A DNA stretch of 64,000 nt from Microbacteriaceae bacterium (GTDB lineage: Bacteria; Actinomycetota; Actinomycetes; Actinomycetales; Microbacteriaceae), in NCBI GenBank assembly GCA_025465095.1, contig JAODME010000005.1, forward strand, positions 124,001-188,000, written 5' to 3'. The position numbers and the translations under genes were made by a program. Below the pieces are notes generated by a model. The model was not told the origin of the DNA and made no database searches. It was given only the letters and a program-made list of their open reading frames with translations. This document shows, in pieces, positions 14,625-49,144 of the stretch (positions within the stretch are counted from its first letter, which is position 1; every line of letters starts with the position of its first letter).

Positions 14625-15935
14625 TCAGTGCAGCAGGTCGTAGCGCGCGAGGGCGTCCGCGTCGCGCGAGTAGGTCGCCGAGCTGCGGGCGGTGTCGAGT
14701 GCGACCACCGGATCGGCCTCCGCTTCCGCGATTGAGAGCAGGCGCTCCGCCTCAGCCAGTCGGGTGCGAGCCTCCGCTCCTGCTCCTCCGCGTCGACCCC
14801 TGATGTACGCCTTGGTGGTCTCTATCTGGCTGCGTGCCGTGAGCAGGGCGCCGTCAAGCGCTTCGCGGGCATGGCTGAGGCGTTGCTGCTGGTTGCGGGC
14901 GCCGGCGAGCGCCGTGTCGAGAGCATCGGTCGTCGCCTCGATGCGGGCGATGGCGGCATCCGGGTCCGTTCGCTGCCCATGGGCCAGAACCCCGGCGATG
15001 GTGCGCTCGACCCGGGTGACCGCATAGGCGACGGCAGATCCGGTCGCCGGGTCGGGCGGATCTTCACGCACCCTCTTCGCCCTCTCAACGGCGTCTCTCG
15101 CGCTGTCGAGAACCTCTGTCAGGCGCACGGATGACGTGTGCAGAGCGCTCGCGTGCCGATCGAGATCGTCCAGCAGCTGCACAGCCCTCCTCGCATCCCG
15201 CTCGGCAGAGTGGACTGTCGCTGCGATCGCGCCGACGTCGTGGAGTCCCACGGACGCGTCCTCGGCGGTGTTCGCGGCCGAGTCGAGCAGTCGCGCTGCC
15301 TCTGACGGGTGATTGGCCACGGGCGCGATCGCCGAGGGCGCGTAGCGGGCGGTCAGGGACTCGAGGGTGGCCACGGCGGCCGCGATCCGGTCCCGAGTCG
15401 CGTCCACGGCCCGGCGGAGGGTTTGCAGTTCCTGCGGAGCGGCCCGCTCCTGCCCGCGAAGCTCATCGAAGACGGCCCGCTCCGCGGCCAGCTTCTCACT
15501 CGTCGTCTCGCACAGCGTCAGGATCCGGGCGTTCCACTCGCGTTGCTGCGTCGCGCTGTCGGGGGTCGCGTCGTCGAGTTGTTGCTTGAGGGCGAAGGCA
15601 GCGGCGAGGTTGGCGCGAGCGGCACGCAATGCCTCGGCCAGGCCCGCGGCGCGATCCTCCCCGAACTGCGCCACGGCGAACCCCAGTTCGTCGGCGCTCG
15701 ATGCGACCGCGTCATCCAGCCGCACAAGCGCGATGTTGGCACGCCGTCCGGAATCGTCGGACCGGGGACTCTTCCTCGCCGATCGAGCACGGCGAATGAG
15801 CACGGCGAAGCCGACCATGAGAACCACGGCGAAGACGGCGCCCGCGGTGACCACCGCGACACCCAACCCGATCACGGCATCGGACCGGGCGCTCGCCGCG
15901 GCAACGAGGGAGAGGAGCGCCAGCATGGTGAGCAC
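14625..15935 (-). CDS. Hypothetical protein with N-terminal hydrophobic segments and long Ala/Arg-rich helical body
   Basis: MLALLSLVAAASARSDAVIGLGVAVVTAGAVFAVVLMVGFAVLIRR then helical repeats; start approximate. Confidence 0.55.
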   Translation of the reverse strand: MLTMLALLSLVAAASARSDAVIGLGVAVVTAGAVFAVVLMVGFAVLIRRARSARKSPRSDDSGRRANIALVRLDDAVASSADELGFAVAQFGEDRAAGLAEALRAARANLAAAFALKQQLDDATPDSATQQREWNARILTLCETTSEKLAAERAVFDELRGQERAAPQELQTLRRAVDATRDRIAAAVATLESLTARYAPSAIAPVANHPSEAARLLDSAANTAEDASVGLHDVGAIAATVHSAERDARRAVQLLDDLDRHASALHTSSVRLTEVLDSARDAVERAKRVREDPPDPATGSAVAYAVTRVERTIAGVLAHGQRTDPDAAIARIEATTDALDTALAGARNQQQRLSHAREALDGALLTARSQIETTKAYIRGRRGGAGAEARTRLAEAERLLSIAEAEADPVVALDTARSSATYSRDADALARYDLLH

Positions 15936-16010
15936 TTTACGGGCAACGGATAGGGCGAAACTCCACGTCCGCTCCCAACTGTTGCCGCCCGGTAGCCGTA
16001 CAGTGTCGGT

Positions 16011-19000
16011 GTGTGGCGCGCTGATAGACGAGACGAGACGGGGGACTTCCTGTCTGAATTCGAAGAGAACCCGACCCATGCCGAGCCGCAGGTCACTGCA
16101 CCTCACGTGGTCAGTGTCGGGGATTCCTCCCACCGGCTCGGGAATGTCGCCGAGTCGACCTGGCAGAGCTGGCGCGAGGAGCTGTCCCGTGTCGGCGGGC
16201 GATCTCCGCTGCTGCATTTCGTCGACGCCCCGCGCACCCGCATCGAACTGTCCACGACGCACCCCGGTGGGCTCGCGCGGTTCATCACCGGCAAGACGAC
16301 GCTGCTCTCCAATCTCATCCGCGACGACCTCGCTCTCCGCGCGGCGAGGACCGCCGCTGCGGAGATCACTGCCAAGGGCGTGGAGCTGCAGACGGCGCGT
16401 GGCATCGATTCCGTTCACCTAGGCATCGGCATCGCCGAGTGGCAATACGATTCGGAGGCGTTCTGCGCGCCGATCCTGCTGCGCCCCCTCGCGATCCGCC
16501 GCTACGGGCGCGACTTCGAGATCCGGCTCCGCGGTTCGGCCTACCTCAACCCCGAACTCGCCCGCGCACTCAAGGCCCAGTTCGCGATCGAACTCGACGC
16601 GGCCTCTTTCGCCGCGCTGGCCGAGACGGATGGCTCGTTCAAGCCCAACCCGGTCATCGATCGCCTGCGTGGCCTGACCTCGCACCTGGAGTGGTTCAAC
16701 GTCCAACCGCGACTCGTCGTGTCGTCCTTCGCCGACGTTCAGGCCCGCTTGTTCGAGGACGCGGCCGAGCTCGATCACCCTGTTCTCGACGCGCTTGCCG
16801 GAAACGTGAACGCCCGCCGCATAGTCGAGGACGACTATGCCCCGGTCGAACCTCAGCACCAAGACCTGCGGGCACCGGAGACGGACACCCTCCTGCTGGA
16901 CGCCGACGCGGAGCAGGAGAACATCGTTGCGCAGATCGCGGCCGGAAACTCGGTCGTGGTCAAGACCCTTCCTGGCACGGGAGGCACCCAGACCGTGGTG
17001 AACGCGGTCGGCTGTCTCGTCGCCCAGAACAAGAGGGTGCTCGTGGTGAGCCCGCGCCGCTCGAGTCTCCTCGGGCTGCAGGCTCGGTTCGCCGACATCG
17101 GGCTCGGCGGTGTGGCGGTCTCACCGGCGACGCTTCGGCGCGACCTGATCCGGTCGATCGCACGCAACGAGAAGGCGAAGCAGCCCCACGTCGGCGAAGT
17201 CGACGAGGCGCTCGTGCGGCTGCGGAAGGTGCTCCTCGACTACCGCACGGCCATCGCGCGCAAGGACGATGTCCTGGGGATCTCCGTGCTCGACTGCCTC
17301 ACCGAACTCTCCCGCCTCGCCCTGCTGACGAGACCACCGTCGACGACTGTTCGTCTCAGCCGCAGTTCGGTCGAGCGGATGGCGGATGCCCGGGGCAGGG
17401 CCGCGGAGGCGATGGTGCAGGCCGCCACCCTCGGGGAATTCAAGTATGGACCGGGTGATTCGCCCTGGTACGGAGCGACCTTCGCAACGAGCGAGCAGGC
17501 CAGTCGCGCGCACTCGCTCGCGAAGAAGCTGCACCAGACTGATCTGCCGCGACTGCTCGTACGCGCGGGGGAGCTCATCGGTTCCACTCGGATGCGCCCG
17601 TTCGGGAGCATCATCCAGCTCGGCGTGTACCTTCGACTGCTCACCGATATCCGCGACACGCTCGACAAATTCCAGCCGGTCGTCTTCGACCGGTCGCTGA
17701 GCGAACTCGTCGCCGCCACCGCGTCGCGGCGCGAGTCGCCGGAGATGTCCGGGGCCAACCGGCGCCGTCTGAAGAAGCTGGCGCGTGAGTACGTGCGGCC
17801 GGGCGTGCACGTGAGCGACCTGCACGACAGCCTCGCGCGTATCCAGCAGCAGCGCATCCTGTGGCAGCGTTTCGTCGCTGCCGGTGCACCGCCGGAGGTT
17901 CCCGTGGGCATCGCCGACGTTCAGGCCGCGTGGCAGCGAGTTGAACAGGACCTCGCGTCGATCGACGAGCCGCTCAACACGACGCTGCAGAGCGAGCAGC
18001 TCGTGCATCTGCCGATCGCGGAGCTTGGCGATCGACTCGCCCTGCTCGCCGCGGAGTCCGATGTGCTGCACAACCTGCAGGAGCGTGCGGAGATTCGCCA
18101 GATGCTGCGATCACTCGAACTCGACGGGCTCATCGCCGATCTCGCGTCCCGTCACGTGCCCGCAGAGGAAGTAGCCGCCGAGCTCGAACTGGCTTGGTGG
18201 CAGTCCGCACTCGAGTCACTGCTCGAGTCGGACCGTGCCCTCCTCGGAGCCAACACATCTGTCCTCGACCGGCTGGAAGCCGATTTCAGGCTCGTCGACG
18301 ATGCCCACGCCGCGGGCAGCGCTCAGCTGCTCGCTTGGCAGCTGGCGGAGAACTGGAGCATCGGTCTCGTCGACTGGCCGGACGAATCGGCCGGACTGAA
18401 GAGCGCGCTCCGGCAGCCCGCGATCACCTCCGCGAAGCTCCAGTCTGTCGCACCCCACCTGTCCCGGGCGGTGGCCCCGGTGTGGCTAGCTTCGCCATAC
18501 GAGATCGACACCATCACCGACTCCATGCCGGTCGATACCGTGATTCTCGTCGACGCGGGCGCGATGACCCTCGCGGAGAGCATCGGCGCGATCCGACGAG
18601 CCAAGCAGGTCGTCGCCTTCGGTGACCCGGTGACCCAGACACCCGCCGCGTTTCAGATCGCCATCTCGGATGATTTCGAGCAGCCGGCACCGCCGCCGGA
18701 TGAGCCCGACCTCGACGCGCTGCACGCCGACTCGGCGCTCGCCAGGCTCGGCACACTGCTTCCCACCCTCGCTCTCACCAGGAGCTACCGCGCTGGAGGC
18801 GAAGACCTCGCCGAATTGGTGAACAGACGCTTCTACGCCGGAAAGATCGACTCGCTGCCCTGGGCGGGCTCCTTCCTCGGGCATCCCAGCATCAAGGTCG
18901 ACTTCGTGTCGGGCGGACACGGGATGCCGGACCCGGAGAGCGGCGCCGTCGAGAGTGTGGACGCTGAAGTGGCGCGAGTGGTCGAGCTCGTGCTCGAGCA

Positions 19001-19793
19001 TGCCGCAACGCGCCCTCGGGAGTCGCTCATGGTCATTACGGCGAGTGCAAAGCACGTCGTCCGTGTGCAGCACGCGGTGCTGACGGCCGTTGCCGCGCGA
19101 CCGGAATTGAACGAGTTCATCCTGAGCGACCGTCCTGAACCGTTCACCGTGATGACGCTCGATCAGGCCGTCGCGGAAAGCCGGGACCGGGTCATCTTCT
19201 CGATCGGGTACGGACGCACGCCGCACGGCCGGGTTCTCTCCGATTTCGGTGCCCTCGGTCATCCGGGAGGCGAGAGACTGCTCGCCGTCGCCATGACGCG
19301 CGCCCGGCGTTCGATGGTGATCGTCACCTGCTTCGAGTCGTCGGACATCGACGAGTCGCGCATGAACTTCGGCGCCGTTGCGCTTGCCGACATTCTGGCG
19401 GATGCTGCGGGCCGTGCTCTCGAGACCGCTCCGGTGGACAGCGACGACCCGATGCTCGTCGACCTCGCGCGCCGACTCCAGGCTCGCGGCCTTCGCGTAG
19501 CCGTCGGGCATCGCGGCAAGCTTCCGCTGGTCGCATCGCACGGGGGGATGTGCCTCGCGATCGAGACCGACGCGGAGCTGAACGGCACCGACGGTCAGAT
19601 CACGAGCTTGCGGGAGTCGTTGCGCCTGCGCCCGGAGATGCTTCGTCGACTGGGCTGGCACTATCTTCGCGTGCACGCATTCGAACTGTTCAGCGACCCG
19701 GACGCCGTCGCATACCGAATCGCGAACATGCTCGGCGTATCCTCCGCCCCTCATACAGAACCGATCCCGATCGTTGCCTCCCCGAACGCCTGA
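16011..19793 (+). CDS. Large multidomain DUF4011-like / SF1-helicase-like / REase_MTES_1575-like protein with degenerate motifs
   Basis: Helicase-like order: LPGTGGTQTVVNAVGCL, VILVDAGAM, QVVAFGDPVTQTP, LTRSYRAGGEDLAELVNRRFY, AMTRARRSMVIV; C-terminal LAIETDAEL...SLRLRPEMLRRLGWHYLRVHAFELFSDP. Confidence 0.75.
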   Translation: MWRADRRDETGDFLSEFEENPTHAEPQVTAPHVVSVGDSSHRLGNVAESTWQSWREELSRVGGRSPLLHFVDAPRTRIELSTTHPGGLARFITGKTTLLSNLIRDDLALRAARTAAAEITAKGVELQTARGIDSVHLGIGIAEWQYDSEAFCAPILLRPLAIRRYGRDFEIRLRGSAYLNPELARALKAQFAIELDAASFAALAETDGSFKPNPVIDRLRGLTSHLEWFNVQPRLVVSSFADVQARLFEDAAELDHPVLDALAGNVNARRIVEDDYAPVEPQHQDLRAPETDTLLLDADAEQENIVAQIAAGNSVVVKTLPGTGGTQTVVNAVGCLVAQNKRVLVVSPRRSSLLGLQARFADIGLGGVAVSPATLRRDLIRSIARNEKAKQPHVGEVDEALVRLRKVLLDYRTAIARKDDVLGISVLDCLTELSRLALLTRPPSTTVRLSRSSVERMADARGRAAEAMVQAATLGEFKYGPGDSPWYGATFATSEQASRAHSLAKKLHQTDLPRLLVRAGELIGSTRMRPFGSIIQLGVYLRLLTDIRDTLDKFQPVVFDRSLSELVAATASRRESPEMSGANRRRLKKLAREYVRPGVHVSDLHDSLARIQQQRILWQRFVAAGAPPEVPVGIADVQAAWQRVEQDLASIDEPLNTTLQSEQLVHLPIAELGDRLALLAAESDVLHNLQERAEIRQMLRSLELDGLIADLASRHVPAEEVAAELELAWWQSALESLLESDRALLGANTSVLDRLEADFRLVDDAHAAGSAQLLAWQLAENWSIGLVDWPDESAGLKSALRQPAITSAKLQSVAPHLSRAVAPVWLASPYEIDTITDSMPVDTVILVDAGAMTLAESIGAIRRAKQVVAFGDPVTQTPAAFQIAISDDFEQPAPPPDEPDLDALHADSALARLGTLLPTLALTRSYRAGGEDLAELVNRRFYAGKIDSLPWAGSFLGHPSIKVDFVSGGHGMPDPESGAVESVDAEVARVVELVLEHAATRPRESLMVITASAKHVVRVQHAVLTAVAARPELNEFILSDRPEPFTVMTLDQAVAESRDRVIFSIGYGRTPHGRVLSDFGALGHPGGERLLAVAMTRARRSMVIVTCFESSDIDESRMNFGAVALADILADAAGRALETAPVDSDDPMLVDLARRLQARGLRVAVGHRGKLPLVASHGGMCLAIETDAELNGTDGQITSLRESLRLRPEMLRRLGWHYLRVHAFELFSDPDAVAYRIANMLGVSSAPHTEPIPIVASPNA

Positions 19794-19989
19794 GCCGCCC
19801 GAGAATCCGGCCCCCGGGGGCGCCCCGGACCCGCGGCATCGCGCTGATCGTGTGCCGCGCCAACGCCGGCGCGTGACGACGGATGCGGTGCCGGGCTCGG
19901 ACCCGACGCCGCAGAATGAGCCGCCGCGGCACGCCGACGACGAGAACGACGACCGCCTGCGCGGGGACAAGCCGCCGCACTGGGGGTGA
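19774..19989 (+). CDS. Small hydrophilic Pro/Asp-rich protein; true start probably within 19852-19873
   Basis: C-terminus TTDAVPGSDPTPQNEPPRHADDENDDRLRGDKPPHWG looks protein-like; upstream part overlaps the preceding gene. Confidence 0.4.
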   Translation: MPPRTPEPPENPAPGGAPDPRHRADRVPRQRRRVTTDAVPGSDPTPQNEPPRHADDENDDRLRGDKPPHWG

Positions 19990-20017: not shown

Positions 20018-20470
20018 CTAGCGACCAGTCGGCAGCGAGTGATTGCCCTCGGCGGTCGGCCGGCCGGCCAGGAGGTCGCGGATCTCGATGAGCAGCTCCG
20101 TCTCGGTGGGCGGCACGTTCGGCGGCGTCGCATCCTCCTCCTGCTTCTGGCGGAGGAATGCGACCTTCTTGAGATGGTTGATCGGCACCACGAGGGCGAA
20201 GTAGACCACCGACGCGACCAGGAGGAACTGCACGAGCGCCGCGATCACCGCGCCGAACGCCAACTCCGCCACCGCCCCGCTCGTGGTGGGAATCTCCACC
20301 ACGAACGCCGTCTTGAGGCTTTCCGCGTTGAAGAGCGCCCCGATGGCCGGGTTGAAGATGCCCTCGACCAGAGAGTTCACGATCGCGGTGAACGCCGCGC
20401 CGATCACGACGGCGACCGCGAGGTCGATGACGTTGCCCCGCAGGATGAATTCCTTGAACCCCTTGATCAT
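20018..20470 (-). CDS. mscL: Large-conductance mechanosensitive channel
   Basis: MIKGFKEFILRGNVIDLAVAVVIGAAFTAIVNSLVEGIFNPAIG. Confidence 0.96.
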   Translation of the reverse strand: MIKGFKEFILRGNVIDLAVAVVIGAAFTAIVNSLVEGIFNPAIGALFNAESLKTAFVVEIPTTSGAVAELAFGAVIAALVQFLLVASVVYFALVVPINHLKKVAFLRQKQEEDATPPNVPPTETELLIEIRDLLAGRPTAEGNHSLPTGR

Positions 20471-20483
20471 GAGGAGCGGAAGC

Positions 20484-20867
20484 TTATGCCGCTGTCGTCG
20501 CGGACGACTTGGGCGCAGCCGATGACGTGGCAGCAGCGGCAGCCGGCTTCGGCTCCGACTTCACGGAGTCCGATTTCCCGGCATCCGAGCCAGAGCCGCT
20601 CGAGTTCGACGAGTCGCTCGAGGACGAGCTCGAGTCGCTTGAGGATGACGATCCGGATGACGATCCACTCGAGCCCTTGCCGCCCGCGGCCGCCCGGGAG
20701 TCGTTGCGGTAGAACCCCGAGCCGTTGAAACTCACGCCGATGGCGGTGAACACCTTGCGGAGTCGCCCGGCGCAGGCGGGACACACGGTGAGCGAGTCAT
20801 CCGTGAATGACTGCTGAATGTCGAAGGCGTTCGTGCACTCGGTGCAGCGGTAGGAATAGGTGGGCAC
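20484..20867 (-). CDS. FmdB-family zinc-ribbon protein with Ser-rich low-complexity tail
   Basis: MPTYSYRCTECTNAFDIQQSFTDDSLTVCPACAGRLRKVFTAIGVSFNGSGFYRNDSR. Confidence 0.92.
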   Translation of the reverse strand: MPTYSYRCTECTNAFDIQQSFTDDSLTVCPACAGRLRKVFTAIGVSFNGSGFYRNDSRAAAGGKGSSGSSSGSSSSSDSSSSSSDSSNSSGSGSDAGKSDSVKSEPKPAAAAATSSAAPKSSATTAA

Positions 20868-20924
20868 GAAGACCTCCGTTGTGGCGCTGAGGAGCGATGG
20901 GGAGAAGAAGTAGAGGTGGCGGAC

Positions 20925-21503
20925 TCAGAAGGTGACGACACCGCTGGGGGTGACGACGCCGTTCACACGCTTGTCGTGCACCTCGCTGGGCACGGAGTCC
21001 ACAAACTCGTTGTCGAAGGTCACAGCATAGACCGGCGGGCAGCGTTCCATCGATCCGAGGGTGCGGTCGAAGTAGCCCCTGCCCCAACCCATGCGCATTC
21101 CTGTCTTGTCGACGGAAGCCGCGGGCACGATGATGAGGTCTACGTCGTTGATCGCGATCGGGCCGAGCAGTTCACCGACCGGCTCGGGAAGGCCGAACAG
21201 CCCCTCCGTCTCCTGCTTCCCGTCGGCGACCGCCCAGTCGAGCAGCCCGTCGTCGCGCGAGATGGGCACCAGAACCCGAATGCCCTGCTCGATCGCCCAG
21301 TCGACGAAGGGACGGGTATCGGGCTCGTCGGTCGTTGACAGGTACGCCGCCACGGACCGTGCACCCGACTCGGTCGTCAGCCGGATCAGTTGATCGCGCA
21401 GCGCCACGGTCGCGTTCGCCCGGTCTCGGGGGCTGAGCTGCCGGCGCCGCTCACGCAGTTCGGCGCGAAGCGCGCGCTTCTCGTGGCTCGCGTCGCGGGT
21501 CAT
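20925..21503 (-). CDS. 5-formyltetrahydrofolate cyclo-ligase family protein
   Basis: LIIVPAASVDKTGMRMGWGRGYFDRTLG; ATG 21503 (MTRDASHEKRALR). Confidence 0.9.
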   Translation of the reverse strand: MTRDASHEKRALRAELRERRRQLSPRDRANATVALRDQLIRLTTESGARSVAAYLSTTDEPDTRPFVDWAIEQGIRVLVPISRDDGLLDWAVADGKQETEGLFGLPEPVGELLGPIAINDVDLIIVPAASVDKTGMRMGWGRGYFDRTLGSMERCPPVYAVTFDNEFVDSVPSEVHDKRVNGVVTPSGVVTF

Positions 21504-21568
21504 CCTGTCATCATAAACCGACCGCGTCGTGAACCCGCGCAAAAGGCACGACCGTATAACGTTGGCCC

Positions 21569-22459
21569 ATGGCGTTCCAGATAACCAAAGCAGTCATTCC
21601 AGCCGCCGGGCTCGGCACGCGGTTCCTTCCGGCAACGAAGGCAATGCCGAAAGAGATGCTGCCGGTCGTTGACAAGCCGGCCATCCAGTACGTGGTCGAA
21701 GAGGCAGTCGCCGCGGGCCTTGATGACGTGCTGATGATCACCGGACGCAACAAGAACGCGCTCGAGAATCATTTCGACCGGATCGGCGAACTCGAGGCGA
21801 CCCTGGAGGCGAAGGGCGACACCGAGCGGCTTCAGAAGGTGAACTTCTCAAGTGACCTCGCCGAGATGCACTACGTTCGCCAGGGTGACCCGCTCGGTCT
21901 CGGGCATGCGGTGCTGCGCGCGAAGATGCACGTCGGTCGGGAGCCGTTCGCGGTGCTCCTCGGCGACGACATCATCGACGAGCGGGACGTTCTGCTCACC
22001 CGGATGATCGAGGAACAGTCGAAGCGCAACGCGAACGTCGTCGCGCTGCTCGAAGTCGACCCTGCGGTCGCTCACATGTACGGTATCGCCACCGTCGAGG
22101 CCACGGAAACGGATGATGTCGTGCGTATCACCGGGCTGGTCGAGAAGCCCGCCTCGGGCACGGCACCGTCGAACTACGCGATCATCGGACGCTACGTGCT
22201 GCGCCCCGAGGTCTTCGAGGTTCTCGAGAACACCGAGCCGGGAAAGGGCGGCGAAATTCAGCTCACCGACGCCCTCCAGACCATGGCGGAGGACTCGGCA
22301 AGCGGAGGAGTCTTCGGCGTCGTCTTCCGCGGCCGCCGGTACGACACCGGCGACAGGCTCGACTACATCAAAGCGATCGTGCAGCTCGCGGTCGAGCGCG
22401 ACGACCTCGGCCCGGAACTGCGGCCCTGGCTCAAGGCGTTTGCTGGCGGCCTGGACTGA
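21569..22459 (+). CDS. galU: UTP-glucose-1-phosphate uridylyltransferase
   Basis: TKAVIPAAGLGTRFLPATKAMPKEMLPVVDKPAIQYVVEEA. Confidence 0.96.
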   Translation: MAFQITKAVIPAAGLGTRFLPATKAMPKEMLPVVDKPAIQYVVEEAVAAGLDDVLMITGRNKNALENHFDRIGELEATLEAKGDTERLQKVNFSSDLAEMHYVRQGDPLGLGHAVLRAKMHVGREPFAVLLGDDIIDERDVLLTRMIEEQSKRNANVVALLEVDPAVAHMYGIATVEATETDDVVRITGLVEKPASGTAPSNYAIIGRYVLRPEVFEVLENTEPGKGGEIQLTDALQTMAEDSASGGVFGVVFRGRRYDTGDRLDYIKAIVQLAVERDDLGPELRPWLKAFAGGLD

Positions 22460-22464
22460 CCGCG

Positions 22465-23127
22465 ATGGCGACGTCCATCCCCACATTGCGCGAAGGTGGC
22501 GTGACGATTCGCCCCATCCGTTTGCGCGACGCACGGGTGCTCGAACGCGAGCTTCTCGAGAACCGGGGGTGGCTGCGCAAGTGGGAGGCCACCAATCCGA
22601 ACGGCCCGCTCAGCTTCGACACGCGTGCGAGCATCCGCAGCCTTCAGGCCAACGCGCGAGCCGGCTTCGGGTTGCCGTTCGCGATCGAGCAGGACGGCGA
22701 TTTCGCCGGCCAGCTCAACGTGTCCTCGATCACCTACGGCTCGCTCGGGTCGGCCACGATCGGATACTGGGTGTCCGAGCGGTTTGCCGGAATGGGGGTG
22801 ACCCCCACCGCGGTGGCCCTCGCCACCGACTTCTGCTTCTTCCAGGCCGGGCTGCACCGTATGGAGATCTGCATCCGCCCCGAGAACGAACCGTCGCTGC
22901 GCGTCGTCGAGAAGCTCGGCTTCCGCTACGAGGGGCTTCGGCGGCGCTATATCCACATCAACGGTGACTGGCGCGACCATTTCTGCTTTGCGCTTGTCGT
23001 CGAGGAGCTGCCCACCGGGGTGCTGCGTCGGTGGCTTGACGGGCGCGTGCCGGCGGCGAACGCGGTCATTCCCGAGGCCGATCGCGTCGCCGCGAAGGTG
23101 CCGATGCGACTGGGCTCATCCGGCTGA
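22465..23127 (+). CDS. GNAT family N-acetyltransferase (RimJ-like)
   Basis: VTIRPIRLRDARVLERELLENRGWL...IGYWVSERFAGMGVTPTAVALATDFCFFQAGLHRMEICIRPENEPSLRVVEKLGFRYEG. Confidence 0.93.
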   Translation: MATSIPTLREGGVTIRPIRLRDARVLERELLENRGWLRKWEATNPNGPLSFDTRASIRSLQANARAGFGLPFAIEQDGDFAGQLNVSSITYGSLGSATIGYWVSERFAGMGVTPTAVALATDFCFFQAGLHRMEICIRPENEPSLRVVEKLGFRYEGLRRRYIHINGDWRDHFCFALVVEELPTGVLRRWLDGRVPAANAVIPEADRVAAKVPMRLGSSG

Positions 23128-34656: not shown

Positions 34657-37137
34657 GTGGGAATTACGGTAGTCAAGCGCAATGGTGAACGAGAGCCTTA
34701 CGACGCCAACAAGATCAACCTGGCGATCGAGCACGCGAGCGCCGGTCTCGACGACAACATTGCGTGGGTGACCCAGATCGCGTCGGAACTCGAGATCACG
34801 CTGTTCGACGGGATTTCGACGCAGCAGCTCGACGAGGCCGTCATTCAGGTCGCCCTTCAGAACGTGAAGGACGACCCGGCGTTCGACACCGTCGCCGCGC
34901 GGCTCCTGCTCAAGACCATCTACAAGCGCGTGCTCGGCGACTACGAGAACGATGACGAGCTCAAGTCCCTGCATGCTGCCCACTTCGGCGCCAACATCAT
35001 GCGCGGCGTCGAGGAGAAGCTGCTCGACCCGCGTCTTGGCGAGCTGTTCGACCTCTCGGTTCTTGCGAACGCGCTCGAGCCCGCGCACGACGAACTGCTC
35101 AAGTACATCGGCGTCGTCACCCTCAACAACCGCTACGGCATCAAGGGGCGCAACGGCGACACCCTCGAGGTTCCGCAGTACTTCTGGATGCGCATCGCGA
35201 TGGGGCTCTCGCTCAACGAGGCGAACCCGACAGCACATGCCATCGCCTTCTACGAGAAGATGTCGAAGCTCGAGTACCTGGCCGCCGGATCGACGCTCGT
35301 CAATGCCGGCACGATCTACCCGCAGCTCGCGAACTGCTTCGTCATGGAGATGCAGGACGACATGGAGCACATCGCGAAGACCACTCGCGACGTGATGTGG
35401 CTCACCAAGGGCACCGGCGGCATCGGGCTCTCCGTCACCAAGCTGCGCGCGCAAGGCTCGCCGATCCGCTCGAACAACACGACCTCGACCGGCCCCATCC
35501 CGTTCATGCACACGATCGACTCGATCCTGCGCGCCGTCAGTCGCGGCGGCAAGAAGTTCGGCGCGCTGTGCTTCTACATGGAGAACTGGCACCTCGACTT
35601 TCCCGAGTTCCTCGACCTCCGCCAGAACTCGGGCGACCCCTACCGCCGCACCCGCACCGCGAACACCGCAGTATGGATCAGCGACGAGTTCATGAAGCGC
35701 GTGCAAAACGACGACGACTGGTACCTCTTCGACCCGCTCGAGGTCGCCGACCTCAACGAGCTGTACGGCAAGGCGTTCTCCGCCCGCTACAACGAGTACG
35801 TGGCGCTCGCCGACTCCGGCCAGCTGCGCATGCACAAGAAGATCAAGGCACGCGAGCAGTTCAAGTCGATCCTCATCTCCCTGCAGACGACTTCGCACCC
35901 GTGGCTCACCTGGAAGGACACGATCAACAACCGCGCCCTGAACAACAACACGGGCACGATCCACCTGTCGAACCTGTGCACCGAGATCACGCTGCCGCAG
36001 GACGAAGACAACGTGTCCGTCTGCAATCTCGCATCGATCAACCTGTCCCGGCACCTGCTGTTGGCGGGGGGCGTCGCCAAGCCGACGATGGATTGGGCCA
36101 AGATCGAGGAGAGTGCCCGCCTCGCCGTGCGGCAGCTCGACAACCTGATCGACATCACCAAATCGTCGGTGAAGGAGGCGGACTTCTCTAACCAGCAGAA
36201 CCGCGCCATCGGGCTCGGCGTGATGGGCTTCACCGACATCGTCGAGAAGCTCGGCATCAGCTACGAGAGCGAGGAGTCTTACGACCTGATCGACCAGATC
36301 ATGGAACACGTCTCCTACGCGGCGATCGACGAGAGCGCGGACCTCGCACGGGAGCGTGGCGCCTACTCGAACTTTGAGGGCTCCGGCTGGTCGAAGGGAA
36401 TGGTGCCCATCGACAGCATCGCCCTGACCGAAGCGGATCGCGGAATCGACATCAAGGTCAACCGCACCACACGCCTCGACTGGGACGCCCTTCGAGTCAA
36501 GGTCAAGGGTGGAATGCGCAACGCCACCCTCATGGCGATCGCGCCGACAGCATCCATCGGTCTCGTCGCGGGCACGACTCCGGGTCTCGACCCGCAGTTC
36601 TCGCAGATCTTCAGCCGCGCGACCTCGAACGGCAAGTTCCTCGAGGTCAACCGCAATCTGGTCACCGACCTGCAGCAACTCGGCATCTGGGATTCGACCC
36701 GCGAGCTGATCCTGCGCAGCCAGGGTGACATTCAGAACATCGCCGCCATCCCGGATCACGTCAAGGCCGTCTACAAGACGAGCTTCCAGCTGTCGCCGTA
36801 CGCCTTCATCGAGGTCGCCGCGCGTGCCCAGAAGTGGATCGACCAGGCGATCAGCCGCAACATGTACCTCGAGACGCGGGATCTCGGCGACATGATGGAC
36901 ATCTATTCAGCGGCATGGGAGCGGGGCGTCAAGACCACCTACTACCTGCACATGAAGCCGCGACACACGGCGGAACAGTCGACTGTGAAGGTGAACAAGG
37001 CGGAGCAGATCGGCACCGGCGAGCGCCGCGGCTTCGGGTCGGCGTCGTCCGCATCCGCCGTTGCGGACGCGGAGCCGGCCGCAGCCGTGAGCGCGGGACC
37101 GCGCAAGGGGTTCGGTTTCGGAAAGGCGGGCAACTGA
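34657..37137 (+). CDS. nrdA: Ribonucleoside-diphosphate reductase, large (alpha) subunit
   Basis: N-terminal ATP-cone MGITVVKRNGEREPYDANKINLAIEHA; TKGTGGIGLSVTKLRAQGS; SNLCTEITLP; catalytic core. Confidence 0.95.
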   Translation: MGITVVKRNGEREPYDANKINLAIEHASAGLDDNIAWVTQIASELEITLFDGISTQQLDEAVIQVALQNVKDDPAFDTVAARLLLKTIYKRVLGDYENDDELKSLHAAHFGANIMRGVEEKLLDPRLGELFDLSVLANALEPAHDELLKYIGVVTLNNRYGIKGRNGDTLEVPQYFWMRIAMGLSLNEANPTAHAIAFYEKMSKLEYLAAGSTLVNAGTIYPQLANCFVMEMQDDMEHIAKTTRDVMWLTKGTGGIGLSVTKLRAQGSPIRSNNTTSTGPIPFMHTIDSILRAVSRGGKKFGALCFYMENWHLDFPEFLDLRQNSGDPYRRTRTANTAVWISDEFMKRVQNDDDWYLFDPLEVADLNELYGKAFSARYNEYVALADSGQLRMHKKIKAREQFKSILISLQTTSHPWLTWKDTINNRALNNNTGTIHLSNLCTEITLPQDEDNVSVCNLASINLSRHLLLAGGVAKPTMDWAKIEESARLAVRQLDNLIDITKSSVKEADFSNQQNRAIGLGVMGFTDIVEKLGISYESEESYDLIDQIMEHVSYAAIDESADLARERGAYSNFEGSGWSKGMVPIDSIALTEADRGIDIKVNRTTRLDWDALRVKVKGGMRNATLMAIAPTASIGLVAGTTPGLDPQFSQIFSRATSNGKFLEVNRNLVTDLQQLGIWDSTRELILRSQGDIQNIAAIPDHVKAVYKTSFQLSPYAFIEVAARAQKWIDQAISRNMYLETRDLGDMMDIYSAAWERGVKTTYYLHMKPRHTAEQSTVKVNKAEQIGTGERRGFGSASSASAVADAEPAAAVSAGPRKGFGFGKAGN

Positions 37138-37199
37138 TGGACGAGTATGAAGTTCCGGTCGACCCGATGGACGACCTTCAATGCGACAGCTGCCAGTAA
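37137..37199 (+). CDS. 20-aa micro-ORF encoding an R1-like C-terminal CxxC tail (MDEYEVPVDPMDDLQCDSCQ)
   Basis: ATG at 37137 overlaps the nrdA stop (TGATGG), ends TAA 37197-37199; not in supplied ORF track (below length cutoff). Confidence 0.65.
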   Translation: MDEYEVPVDPMDDLQCDSCQ

Positions 37200-37244
37200 G
37201 CCCGCGGGCATTCGGTACACAGACTAAGAGAGCAGAATAACGAC

Positions 37245-38237
37245 ATGGGCATTCTCGGCACCGGACTGCAGGACGGACTCCTGCTCAAGCCGATCAAGTA
37301 CCAGTGGGCGATGGATCTGTACGACCAGGCGGTGGCGAACACGTGGTTTCCGAACGAGATCCAGTTGGGTGAGGACATCGCCGACTTCAAGAAGATGACG
37401 GATGAGGAGCGTCACGCCGTCACCTTCCTGATGAGCTACTTCAACCCCAACGAGCTGCTCGTGAACAAGGCCCTCGCCTTCGGTGTGTACCCTTACGTCT
37501 CCGCGGCGGAGTGCAGCCTGTACCTCGCCAAGCAGATGTGGGAGGAGGCGAACCACTGCATGTCGTTCGAGTACGTGCTCGAGACGTTCCCAATCGACCG
37601 CGAGGCCGCCTACAACTCCCACGTCGACATCCCCTCGATGGCGCGCAAGGAAGAGTTCGAGATGAAGTACATCCGTCGCATGACGGAGAACACGCTCGAC
37701 ATCACCACCACCGAAGGCAAGAAGGACTTCGTGCGCAATCTCGTCGCGTACAACGTGGTGCTCGAAGGCATCTGGTTCTACTCGGGCTTCATGGTGGCGC
37801 TGTCGTTCCGCCAGCGGAATCTGCTGCGCAACTTCGGGTCGCTCATGGACTGGGTGGTGCGTGACGAGTCGCTGCACCTCAAGTTCGGTATCAATCTGAT
37901 CCTCACGGTGCTGGAGGAGAACCCGGACCTGCAGACGGAGGAGTTCGCGGCAGAGATCAAGCAGATGATTCTGGATGCTGTGGAGATGGAAGAGGCGTAC
38001 AACCAGGATCTGCTGCCGGGCGGCATCCTCGGCCTCAACGCGAACTACATCAACCAGTACGTGAAGTACCTGGCCGACCGCCGGCTCGAGGAGCTCGGCT
38101 TCGAGGCCGAGTACAACGTTTCGAACCCGGCGAAGTGGATGGCGGCGGCGAACGACACGCTGCAGCTCGTGAACTTCTTCGAGTCGACGAACACGTCCTA
38201 CGAATCGAACGCATCGGCGACCGTCAGCTCGAGGTAG
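37245..38237 (+). CDS. nrdB: Ribonucleoside-diphosphate reductase, small (beta) subunit, class Ic-like
   Basis: Ligand motifs FNPNELL, WEEANHCMSF, VLEGIWFYSGF, RDESLHLKFG; Phe at the canonical radical-Tyr position. Confidence 0.93.
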   Translation: MGILGTGLQDGLLLKPIKYQWAMDLYDQAVANTWFPNEIQLGEDIADFKKMTDEERHAVTFLMSYFNPNELLVNKALAFGVYPYVSAAECSLYLAKQMWEEANHCMSFEYVLETFPIDREAAYNSHVDIPSMARKEEFEMKYIRRMTENTLDITTTEGKKDFVRNLVAYNVVLEGIWFYSGFMVALSFRQRNLLRNFGSLMDWVVRDESLHLKFGINLILTVLEENPDLQTEEFAAEIKQMILDAVEMEEAYNQDLLPGGILGLNANYINQYVKYLADRRLEELGFEAEYNVSNPAKWMAAANDTLQLVNFFESTNTSYESNASATVSSR

Positions 38238-45313: not shown

Positions 45314-48300
45314 TTAGCCTGCAAGCGCCTTCACGATGCGCTGAGTCGAGACCGGCTCTGCGGTGCGCAACTGCTGCGCGAACAGGCTCACCCGTAACTC
45401 CTCGAGCAGCCAGCGCACTCGCACGAGTCGCTCCGGCGCGTCGGCGGGCAGCGGGATCCGGCCCCCCGCCGCGACGAACCGCGCCGTCGCCGCGGCAACC
45501 TCGTTCTGGCTCACCCGATCCTGGGCGACACTCGTCGGGAGCTTCTCGAGCCGTGCCACGATTGCGCGCAGGTAGCGGGGCAGGTGCTTCAGTTGAGCGC
45601 TGCCGGTGCGGGCGATGAAGCCGGGATAGATGAGCCTCCCCAACTGTTCACGCACATCCGAAAGCGCGGGAAGCAGCGTCATACTCGTCGTCGCCGTGAT
45701 CGCCCGCTCGACGTCGCGAGCTGCCGCGAGGGTGCTCGTGACGACGTTCACGACTTCGTACAGCGCGTCGATGAGCCCCGCAGAGACACTCGTTCTCGCG
45801 CGTTCGAACTCGGCCCGGGTCCACAGGAGCCCTCCGGGTGCGATGTCGCGCAGCGCAGCGTCCGTCACCGCGACCAGGCAGTCGTCGAACAGGGACTGCA
45901 CGTTCTGGTAGGGGCTCGTCGCGAGGGTGAGCTTCTCGCTCTGGCTGAGGTGCTCGCGCACCCACGACAGCGGAGACGGAACAGCGAGGAGCAGCAGCCG
46001 ACGGATGCCGCTCGGCAGGGCCTCGGCCTGATCCTGCGCGGTGCTCATCACCCGGATCGCGACGCTCGACCCCTCGTCGACGAGCGTCGGATAGCCCCGG
46101 ATGACCGTGCCGCCGCGGCGCGTGTCGACGAATCTCGGCAGCTCATCGAAGTCCCAACTCGTGAGGCCGCTCCGCTCCAGCGCGTGCGGGGTGCTCTCGG
46201 TGACTTTCACCACGGACTCCCGCGCGCGCGACTTGAGCTTGTGCTGCAGGGCGGTCAGGTCCTTTGCGGCCGCGACCTGACGGCCGCGGTCATCGAGAAC
46301 GGCGAAGGTGATGCGAAGGTGCGGCGGGATTCGATCGGAGTCGAAGTCGTCCGCGGTCACCGGAGTGTGGGTCTTTCGCTGGATCATCTCCGCGAGGTAC
46401 TCTGTGATGCTCGTGCCCTCGAGCTCCTCGACGGGCAGGCCGGTCGCGTTCTCGAGCAGTCGGCGCGCCCACTCGCCGGCGGGGACGACGTTGCGGCGGA
46501 TCGCCTTCGGCAGGCTCTTGATGAGAGCCGTGACGAGTTCCTCGCGGAGTCCGGGCACCTGCCAGTCGAAGCCGGCCGGCGAGAGCCTCGCCACGAGGGC
46601 GAGCGGAACGTGAGCGGTGACCCCGTCCTCCTCCGAGCCCGGTTCGAAGCGATAGCTGAGTGTGAGCCGCTGATCGCCCTGCTCCCAGCTGCTCGGGAAC
46701 GCGTTCTCATCGATGCGCGCCTCCGCGTCGGACTCATCGAGGAGGTTCTCCGCGGTCATCGTCAGCAGGTCGGGTGTCTCAAGGCGGGCCTTCGTCCACC
46801 AGCTCTCGAATGAGCGGGTGGAATGCACCTCTGCCGGAATGCGACGATGGTAGAACTCGAAGACCGTTTCGTCGTCGACGAGGATGTCCCGGCGCCTCGT
46901 GCGCTCCTCGAGCTCGGCCAGCTCTTTGCGGAGAGCACGGTTGGCGCGGTCGAACGCGCCGACCCGCTTGTCGAGCTGGTCGAGGTTCCAGTCGCCCTCG
47001 ATGAGCGCGTGCCGGATGAACAGCTCGCGCGCGTAGGCGGGGTCGATTTTCGAGAACTGGGTGCGGCGGCGCTCGATGATGGGCACGCCATAGAGCGTCA
47101 CCCGTTCCCAGGCGACGATCGCGCCCTGCTTCTTCTCCCAGTGCGGCTCGCTGTAGCTTCTTTTGGCGAGGTCACCGGCGAGGGGTTCCGCCCAGGACGG
47201 ATCGATGGCCGCGTTCACGCGGGCGAACAGGCGACTCGTCTCCACCAGCTCGGCGCTCATGACGGCATCCGGTTGCTTCTTCGCCAACGCGGAACCGGGA
47301 AAGATCAGGAAGCGCACCTGTCTGGCGCCGGCGTAGTCCTTCTTCTGCCGGTCCCTGATGCCGATCTGGCTGAGCAGCCCGGCGAGCAGCGACTTGTGGA
47401 TGCCCACGGGGTTGACGCTCGCGTCACCGATCGTGAGGCCGAGCGGCTTGGCCATCCGCTGTAGCTGGCGGTAGACGTCGCCCCACTCCCGAATTCGAAG
47501 GAAGTTGAGGTACTCGGCCTTGCACAGTCGCCGGAACGCGCTGCTGGAAAGCTCGTTCTCCTTCGTCTTCAGGTAGTTCCAGAGGTTCAGCAGGGTGAGG
47601 AAATCGCTCGTCGGATCGACGAATCTGGCGTGCTGCTGGTCGGCCTGCGCGCGCTTGTCGAGTGGGCGCTCGCGCGGATCCTGAATGCTCAGCGCGGCGA
47701 CGATCGCCATGACCTCCCGTGTGGTGCCGTGCTGCTTCGACTCGGTCACCATCCGGGCGAGCCGCGGATCGATCGGCAGCTGCGTGAGTTGCCTGCCGAT
47801 GCGGGTGATCTCGTTCTTCGCCGTCACCGCGCCGAGTTCGCGCAGCAGGTCGAGCCCGTCTTTGATGCCGCGTGAGTCCGGCGGCTGCAGGAACGGGAAC
47901 GCGCCGATGTCGCCAAGCCCGAGTGAGATCATCTGCAGGATGACCGCCGCGAGGTTCGTGCGCAGGATCTCCGGCTCGGTGTACTCGGGCCTCCGCTTGA
48001 AGTCGTCCTCGGAGTAGAGGCGGATCGCGATACCGTCACTCGTGCGGCCGCTTCTCCCGGACCGCTGGTTCGCGGACGCCTGAGAGATCGCCTCGATCGG
48101 CAGCCGTTGGACCTTCGCGCGCACGCTGTAGCGCGAAATGCGGGCCATCCCGGCGTCGATGACGTAGCGGATGCCCGGGACGGTGAGGCTCGTCTCGGCG
48201 ACGTTCGTGGCGAGGATGATGCGGCGGCGGGTTCCCGCGGTCGTCGACGGTCGGAACACCTTGTGTTGGTCGGCGGCGCTGAGCCGACCATAGAGCGGGA

Positions 48301-49144
48301 GGACTTCGGTTCCCGGAAGGTTCCGGCCGCGAATCGCCTCCTCGGCATCCCGGATCTCATTCTCCCCACTGAGGAAGACCAGGACGTCACCGCTCGACTC
48401 CCGCGCCAGTTCGTCCAGCGCCGCGTTGATGCCGTCGATCGGGTCGATGCTCGCCTGCGGCCGCTCGTCGAGGTCGTCGCTCTCGACCGCGTCCGCGACG
48501 AGCGGACGGTAGCGGATCTCCACGGGAAAGGTGCGCCCGGAGACCTCCACGATCGGGGCGGGCCTGCCGATGGCATCCGCGAAGTGCTTCGCGAAGCTCT
48601 CCGGATCGATCGTCGCCGAGGTGATGACGACCTTCAGATCGGGGCGGCGGGGAAGCAGCTGCTTGAGGTACCCGAGCAGGAAATCGATGGTGAGGCTGCG
48701 CTCGTGCGCCTCGTCGATGATGATGGCGTCGTACTTCTTGAGGAGGCGGTCGCGGTGGATCTCATTGAGCAGGATGCCGTCGGTCATGAGCTTGACCTTG
48801 GTGTTCTTGCCGACCCGGTCGGTGAAGCGCACCTGGTACCCGACAAGCTCACCGAGTTCCTGGCCCAGTTCCTCCGCGATGCGCTCCGCGATGGTGCGGG
48901 CGGCGATGCGCCGCGGCTGGGTGTGCCCGATGCTCTCGCGACCGAGCTCGAGCAGGATCTTCGGAAGCTGGGTCGTCTTGCCCGATCCGGTCTCGCCCGC
49001 GACGATCACCACCTGGTTGTCGCGGATGACCCTCGCGATCTCCTGCCGCATCCGGCTGACCGGCAGCTCTTCGGGGTAGGTGATGACGAGCGGCGTTGCG
49101 CGGTCGAGCGGCGGCTGCGGTGGCGGGACTTCGGTGGCAGACAT
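45314..49144 (-). CDS. hrpA: ATP-dependent RNA helicase HrpA
   Basis: GETGSGKTTQLPKILLELG, DEAHERSLTIDFLLGYLK, QRSGRSGR; ~1276 aa. Confidence 0.95.
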   Translation of the reverse strand: MSATEVPPPQPPLDRATPLVITYPEELPVSRMRQEIARVIRDNQVVIVAGETGSGKTTQLPKILLELGRESIGHTQPRRIAARTIAERIAEELGQELGELVGYQVRFTDRVGKNTKVKLMTDGILLNEIHRDRLLKKYDAIIIDEAHERSLTIDFLLGYLKQLLPRRPDLKVVITSATIDPESFAKHFADAIGRPAPIVEVSGRTFPVEIRYRPLVADAVESDDLDERPQASIDPIDGINAALDELARESSGDVLVFLSGENEIRDAEEAIRGRNLPGTEVLPLYGRLSAADQHKVFRPSTTAGTRRRIILATNVAETSLTVPGIRYVIDAGMARISRYSVRAKVQRLPIEAISQASANQRSGRSGRTSDGIAIRLYSEDDFKRRPEYTEPEILRTNLAAVILQMISLGLGDIGAFPFLQPPDSRGIKDGLDLLRELGAVTAKNEITRIGRQLTQLPIDPRLARMVTESKQHGTTREVMAIVAALSIQDPRERPLDKRAQADQQHARFVDPTSDFLTLLNLWNYLKTKENELSSSAFRRLCKAEYLNFLRIREWGDVYRQLQRMAKPLGLTIGDASVNPVGIHKSLLAGLLSQIGIRDRQKKDYAGARQVRFLIFPGSALAKKQPDAVMSAELVETSRLFARVNAAIDPSWAEPLAGDLAKRSYSEPHWEKKQGAIVAWERVTLYGVPIIERRRTQFSKIDPAYARELFIRHALIEGDWNLDQLDKRVGAFDRANRALRKELAELEERTRRRDILVDDETVFEFYHRRIPAEVHSTRSFESWWTKARLETPDLLTMTAENLLDESDAEARIDENAFPSSWEQGDQRLTLSYRFEPGSEEDGVTAHVPLALVARLSPAGFDWQVPGLREELVTALIKSLPKAIRRNVVPAGEWARRLLENATGLPVEELEGTSITEYLAEMIQRKTHTPVTADDFDSDRIPPHLRITFAVLDDRGRQVAAAKDLTALQHKLKSRARESVVKVTESTPHALERSGLTSWDFDELPRFVDTRRGGTVIRGYPTLVDEGSSVAIRVMSTAQDQAEALPSGIRRLLLLAVPSPLSWVREHLSQSEKLTLATSPYQNVQSLFDDCLVAVTDAALRDIAPGGLLWTRAEFERARTSVSAGLIDALYEVVNVVTSTLAAARDVERAITATTSMTLLPALSDVREQLGRLIYPGFIARTGSAQLKHLPRYLRAIVARLEKLPTSVAQDRVSQNEVAAATARFVAAGGRIPLPADAPERLVRVRWLLEELRVSLFAQQLRTAEPVSTQRIVKALAG

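Follow-up and report, generated by a model that had tools for sequence, protein, structure and literature searches.

The window analysed here, a stretch of 64,000 nucleotides, contains an open coding sequence at 16011-19793 (+) that starts with GTG and encodes a protein of 1260 amino acids, in which a DUF4011 domain, an Upf1-like SF1 helicase and a Vsr-type nuclease follow one another. The Pfam matches of the protein (DUF4011, AAA_12 and REase_MTES_1575) are weak. The N-terminal DUF4011 domain (PF13195; residues 48-285, 16152-16865 (+), Pfam core 101-183) scores 20.7 bits with the whole protein and 23.6 bits in a genome search, against a gathering cut-off of 22.2, and the orthologues with intact motifs score 27-29 bits. 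It is followed by the first half of RecA-like domain 1 (residues 286-400, 16866-17210 (+)), which was delimited from the alignment with intact orthologues and the AlphaFold2 model and holds the Q motif, a degenerate motif I and motif Ia. A helical insert, placed between motifs Ia and II by the AlphaFold2 secondary structure (residues 401-835, 17211-18515 (+)), shows 33% mean identity among degenerate members of different families. At the C-terminus, the Vsr-type REase domain (Pfam MTES_1575; residues 1154-1240, 19470-19730 (+)) reaches 24.3 bits against a cut-off of 38.2, compared to 74-76 bits in intact orthologues. The PDB searched by sequence gave no match to the protein, and we examined the fold with an AlphaFold2 model built from 56 family sequences (pLDDT 84.3, pTM 0.67). 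The top PDB matches of this model in Foldseek were Senataxin, Aquarius, IGHMBP2, UPF1 and Dna2, with E-values down to 8e-13, indicating that the fold is that of an Upf1-like SF1 helicase, and the model displays two RecA-like lobes with motifs I, II, III, IV, V and VI in order.

Downstream of the gene, at 20018-23127, lies a block encoding MscL, an FmdB-type zinc ribbon, 5-FTHF cyclo-ligase, GalU and a RimJ-like GNAT (the first four identified by Pfam, the last named from its sequence), which adjoins the gene throughout the family Microbacteriaceae and partly across the order. The gene and MscL are transcribed convergently, and the gene belongs to no evident operon. MscL and FmdB flank it in most members of the order, including those whose copy has intact motifs, and therefore the intact and the dead copies are positional orthologues. 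Directly 5' of the GTG start is a -10 box, TACAGT (15999-16004 (+)), from which a leaderless transcript is predicted. Of 108 family members, 107 have a TANNNT box at -12 (85) or -13 (22) relative to the GTG, where ~0.7 would be expected per position; this fixed spacing of 12-13 nt fixes the GTG start, and the conservation of the box in a leaderless layout argues that the gene is expressed.

Several other open reading frames were noted in the window. An ORF at 14625-16418 (-) has no Pfam match and, outside the part antisense to the gene, is conserved only in near relatives; its divergent upstream portion (14625-15950 (-)) amounts to ~400 aa, is Ala/Arg-rich and coiled-coil-like, and has homologues of 33-65% identity at the same position in near relatives only. 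Long open reading frames also run antisense to the gene, at 16103-18071 (-) and 18486-19970 (-), and recur in relatives; high-GC codon usage most likely accounts for them. Farther away are a very long ORF of 1276 aa at 45314-49144 (-) and two ORFs at 34657-38237 (+) whose codon-position GC pattern is unlike that of the surroundings, the first of which, judged by its start, looks like the large subunit of ribonucleotide reductase.

To describe the loss of motifs, we used as reference ten intact orthologues from a few other families, and residue counts for the family refer to 110 Microbacteriaceae sequences. The ten orthologues all share K325, DE at 847-848, Q-G at 1054-1055 and D1172. In our protein the Walker A segment reads PGTGGTQT (residues 321-328, 16971-16994 (+)), with Gly in place of Lys325. 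This lysine is absent from all 110 family sequences (G in 95, A in 9, S in 5 and R in 1), none of which has at this position the GxxxxGK[ST] required of an active SF1 helicase, and from every degenerate member of the order and class. The Walker B segment, VILVDAGAM (residues 844-852, 18540-18566 (+)), has VD for DE; throughout the family D847 is lost (V, L or A) and D occupies the Glu position 848, so that VD, LD or AD replaces the required DE in 110/110 sequences. The substitutions K325 to G, D847 to V and E848 to D emerge when the protein is aligned with its intact same-locus orthologues, which excludes an alignment slip. Motif III is altered to GDPVTQTP (residues 871-878, 18621-18644 (+)), which is GDERQLPP in intact orthologues. 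Motif IV, LTRSYRAGGEDL (residues 922-933, 18774-18809 (+)), retains Arg927, as in 110/110 sequences, and has lost His925 of the HYR found in intact orthologues; SYRAGGEDL is present in the translated ORF. The segment spanning motifs V-VI, RDRVIFSIGYGRTPHGR...AMTRARR (residues 1058-1100, 19182-19310 (+)), retains Arg1099 (110/110), and the QG immediately preceding it at 1054-1055 is VA here, Q1054 being gone in the family. An earlier sequence-only reading of this DNA had reported the ORF and the motifs PGTGGTQT, VILVDAGAM and GDPVTQTP, all borne out letter for letter in the translation, and the replacement of K/S by G/T that it proposed to look for across the clade is what we find, the Walker A Lys being absent from every family sequence.

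The nuclease shows the same kind of loss, a point absent from that reading. Asp1172 is Pro and Asp1204 is Leu in this protein, and at least 105 of the 110 family sequences carry G, A, P, T or S instead of D1172, with E1185 and D1187 largely retained; the PD-motif Asp that, together with a downstream acidic residue, marks an active Vsr / PD-(D/E)xK (MTES_1575) nuclease is therefore missing. Among the residues that never vary in the ten intact orthologues but are gone from the family are K325, D847, E848, H925, Q1054, D1172 and D1204. As these make up the catalytic set, the catalytic residues have been struck specifically, in motor and nuclease alike. Other positions of the nucleotide pocket are near-invariant in the family (T326 in 109/110; D848, R927 and R1099 in 110/110), as are W54, W144, N180, W486, R584, R714, G1073 and W1216. 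We also considered ARFITGKT (residues 89-96), the sole [AG]x4GK[ST] match in the protein, as a replacement P-loop and rejected it: it lies in the DUF4011 domain, where the model shows a helix-loop context unlike the strand-loop-helix of a P-loop, its Lys varies in the family (K in 71/110), and most intact orthologues have GRP there. A second correctly placed P-loop, which would have contradicted the proposed loss of ATPase function, is thus found neither in the sequence nor in the AlphaFold2 model.

The gene is nearly universal in the order. It was found in 198 of 199 good-quality Microbacteriaceae genomes (78/78 genera), in 147 of 149 order genomes (63/63 genera; 146/148 counting good quality) and in 60/60 close and order-level relatives, and genomes of the order as small as 0.8-0.9 Mb retain it; outside the order its distribution is patchy. 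Among 80 Microbacteriaceae records, the named relatives, including Cryobacterium, Curtobacterium, Leifsonia, Agromyces and Salinibacterium, all have the degenerate Walker A. The median dN/dS of the gene is 0.09 over 14 close pairs, and in the same genomes GalU gives 0.067, the RimJ-like GNAT 0.087, FTHF cyclo-ligase 0.135 and MscL 0.21. Strong purifying selection, comparable to that on the neighbouring galU, is well supported by these ratios, confirming what the sequence-only reading had proposed to check, and the relatives together with the dN/dS rule out sequencing error or decay.

For the origin of the gene, we compared it with defence proteins and with its own paralogues. It matches ProA (NF058533) with 295 bits (curated cut-off 1500; intact orthologues ~800), Hhe (NF042953) with 121 bits (curated cut-off 2000) and the PADLOC model PDC-S37 with 303 bits. 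A DUF4011 search of this genome found no active paralogue, which disposes of the possibility that a working copy lies elsewhere in it. Of 200 family genomes, 19 contain the DNA pattern of an intact Walker A, PG[TS]GK[ST]QT, though never in this gene: 16 of the 19 matches fall outside the coordinates listed for the orthologues, and the remaining three belong to large paralogues with at most ~31% identity over the main matches. We thus rejected the possibility that family members carry an intact Walker A at this locus. Separate large DUF4011 proteins of ~1400-2350 aa, whose Walker motifs are intact, are found here and there (in 19 of 200 family genomes, judged by this DNA pattern), which fits mobile defence genes. 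A few lineages carry an intact orthologue at the same locus, and these, together with the implausibility of regaining four catalytic positions, firmly indicate that the ancestor was a working helicase-nuclease from which activity was lost. In a gene tree rooted with the large DUF4011 paralogues, intact copies branch basally or nearly so within the orthologue group and also occur in f5, f18 and f45, and the dead copies fall into a single large clade and some smaller groups, with a minimum of four changes; f18 mixes intact and dead members. Recurrent loss of catalysis in independent events is suggested by this tree, and it stays a suggestion because AU tests leave a single dead clade unrejected (p 0.25 and 0.43). 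The order of events may also be visible: in lineages f6 and f7 the nuclease Asp is often retained where the Walker A Lys is absent, which suggests that helicase activity was lost before the nuclease.

Taken together, the gene very probably encodes a catalytically dead protein that has kept a non-catalytic function. The sequence-only reading had proposed an intact pseudo-helicase kept for such a role, and the loss of the same residues throughout the family, the purifying selection, the synteny and the promoter all support it. Neutral decay of a helicase gene would explain the lost catalytic residues and the high divergence across the order, but with the ORF open in essentially all genomes, dN/dS at ~0.09 and both promoter and locus conserved, we regard it as negligible. 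An active ATPase of non-canonical type, with another residue in place of the Walker Lys, would account for the well-conserved Arg fingers and motif V-VI segment; it is nevertheless very improbable, since almost every family member has G, A or S for the Lys, the Asp of Walker B is lost too, and no [AG]x4GK[ST] occupies the P-loop position in the model. As the best explanation we propose, with a probability of roughly 0.6 overall, that the protein descends from a DUF4011/Upf1-like SF1 helicase fused to a Vsr nuclease, has lost catalysis and now probably has a housekeeping role. We infer its exact role as follows. Both RecA-like lobes would join with the helical insert and the nuclease fold in a static platform, which would bind nucleic acid and/or a partner protein without ATP turnover and could serve, for example, DNA repair, replication-fork or RNA-polymerase maintenance; for this nucleic-acid or partner platform taken by itself, we see about even odds. 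The dead helicase domains of RecC, AddB and Deinococcus PriA may be taken as models for such ATP-independent work.

An observation that speaks against a platform independent of nucleotide is the near-invariance of T326, D848, R927 and R1099, which may indicate that the nucleotide pocket is still in use. The best rival is accordingly a nucleotide sensor, in which this pocket would bind ATP/ADP with very slow or no hydrolysis and binding would switch the two lobes and control a partner. The family has kept these four residues, and also the PGTG loop, despite the loss of K325 and D847, but other members of the order have had the loop destroyed (ASSGSSAL, LGADVAGT, FPKGTAEQ) and still keep the gene, so retention of the pocket is not general, and we consider a sensor rather unlikely. 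Descent from ProA/Hhe-type helicases would also allow a decoy, sensor or assembly subunit in anti-phage defence, with the effector partner encoded elsewhere. Its case lies in the homology to ProA, Hhe and PDC-S37 and in the high ProA scores of the intact orthologues; yet the scores of our protein fall far under the curated cut-offs, the gene is single-copy, syntenic and near-universal even in strongly reduced genomes, and our search for close homologues on plasmids or phages found none. This universal, syntenic and non-mobile distribution weakens a defence role to the point where we find it improbable, more so than the sensor. Of the earlier suggestion that the protein is possibly defence-related, the ancestry shared with ProA/Hhe thus stands, while a present role in defence fits poorly with a near-universal gene inherited vertically and kept in genomes of 0.8-0.9 Mb.

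The housekeeping platform that we prefer can be set against several known systems. ProA, Hhe and PDC-S37 share the order DUF4011, SF1 helicase, Vsr-type REase and give significant HMM matches, but our protein is ~600 aa shorter than the ProA/Hhe models, lies far under their cut-offs and has both catalytic sites dead, and they are patchy defence genes whereas this is a core chromosomal gene. A Microbacterium testaceum protein has the same REase family (REase_MTES_1575) fused to an SF1 helicase; it exceeds 2000 aa, carries HEPN, transglutaminase and wHTH domains and was described as active (HEPN) (PMC3710099), and it corresponds to the class of large intact paralogues, unlike this gene. In RecC, helicase and nuclease are both inactivated (PMC1185551), and in AddB a helicase-like domain reads Chi (PMC4824097). 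Like our protein, these retain an inactivated SF1 helicase fold, and RecC also a nuclease domain, for non-catalytic work; they are however UvrD-type SF1A proteins co-encoded with an active partner, whereas ours is Upf1-like and has no operon partner gene, and so the context gives no indication of a RecBC-like complex. The PriA of Deinococcus radiodurans, a measured pseudohelicase that retains DNA binding (PMC4504706), resembles it in that a whole clade has lost helicase motifs from a conserved bacterial gene, but is an SF2 protein of replication restart in which activity was measured, whereas the loss in ours is read from sequence. We offer the comparisons with RecC, AddB and PriA as analogies and imply no membership.

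A 3.8-kb gene is thus kept in nearly all genomes of the order though its helicase and nuclease sites look dead. Pseudohelicases are few and typically known from one protein or one clade. Our search of the open-access literature on DUF4011, pseudohelicases and MTES_1575 brought up no work on this gene. It is a large core gene, as yet uncharacterised, that probably goes under the name of an ATPase or helicase and is hence mis-assigned. The intact orthologues at the same locus provide a natural before/after comparison. More speculatively, this order-wide actinobacterial core gene might be a RecC-like double pseudoenzyme that arose from a defence-type helicase-nuclease, lost catalysis several times independently (parsimony minimum 4) and now has an unrecognised, possibly essential role in chromosome maintenance. 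Its history suggests a route by which a defence-type enzyme may become a housekeeping factor.
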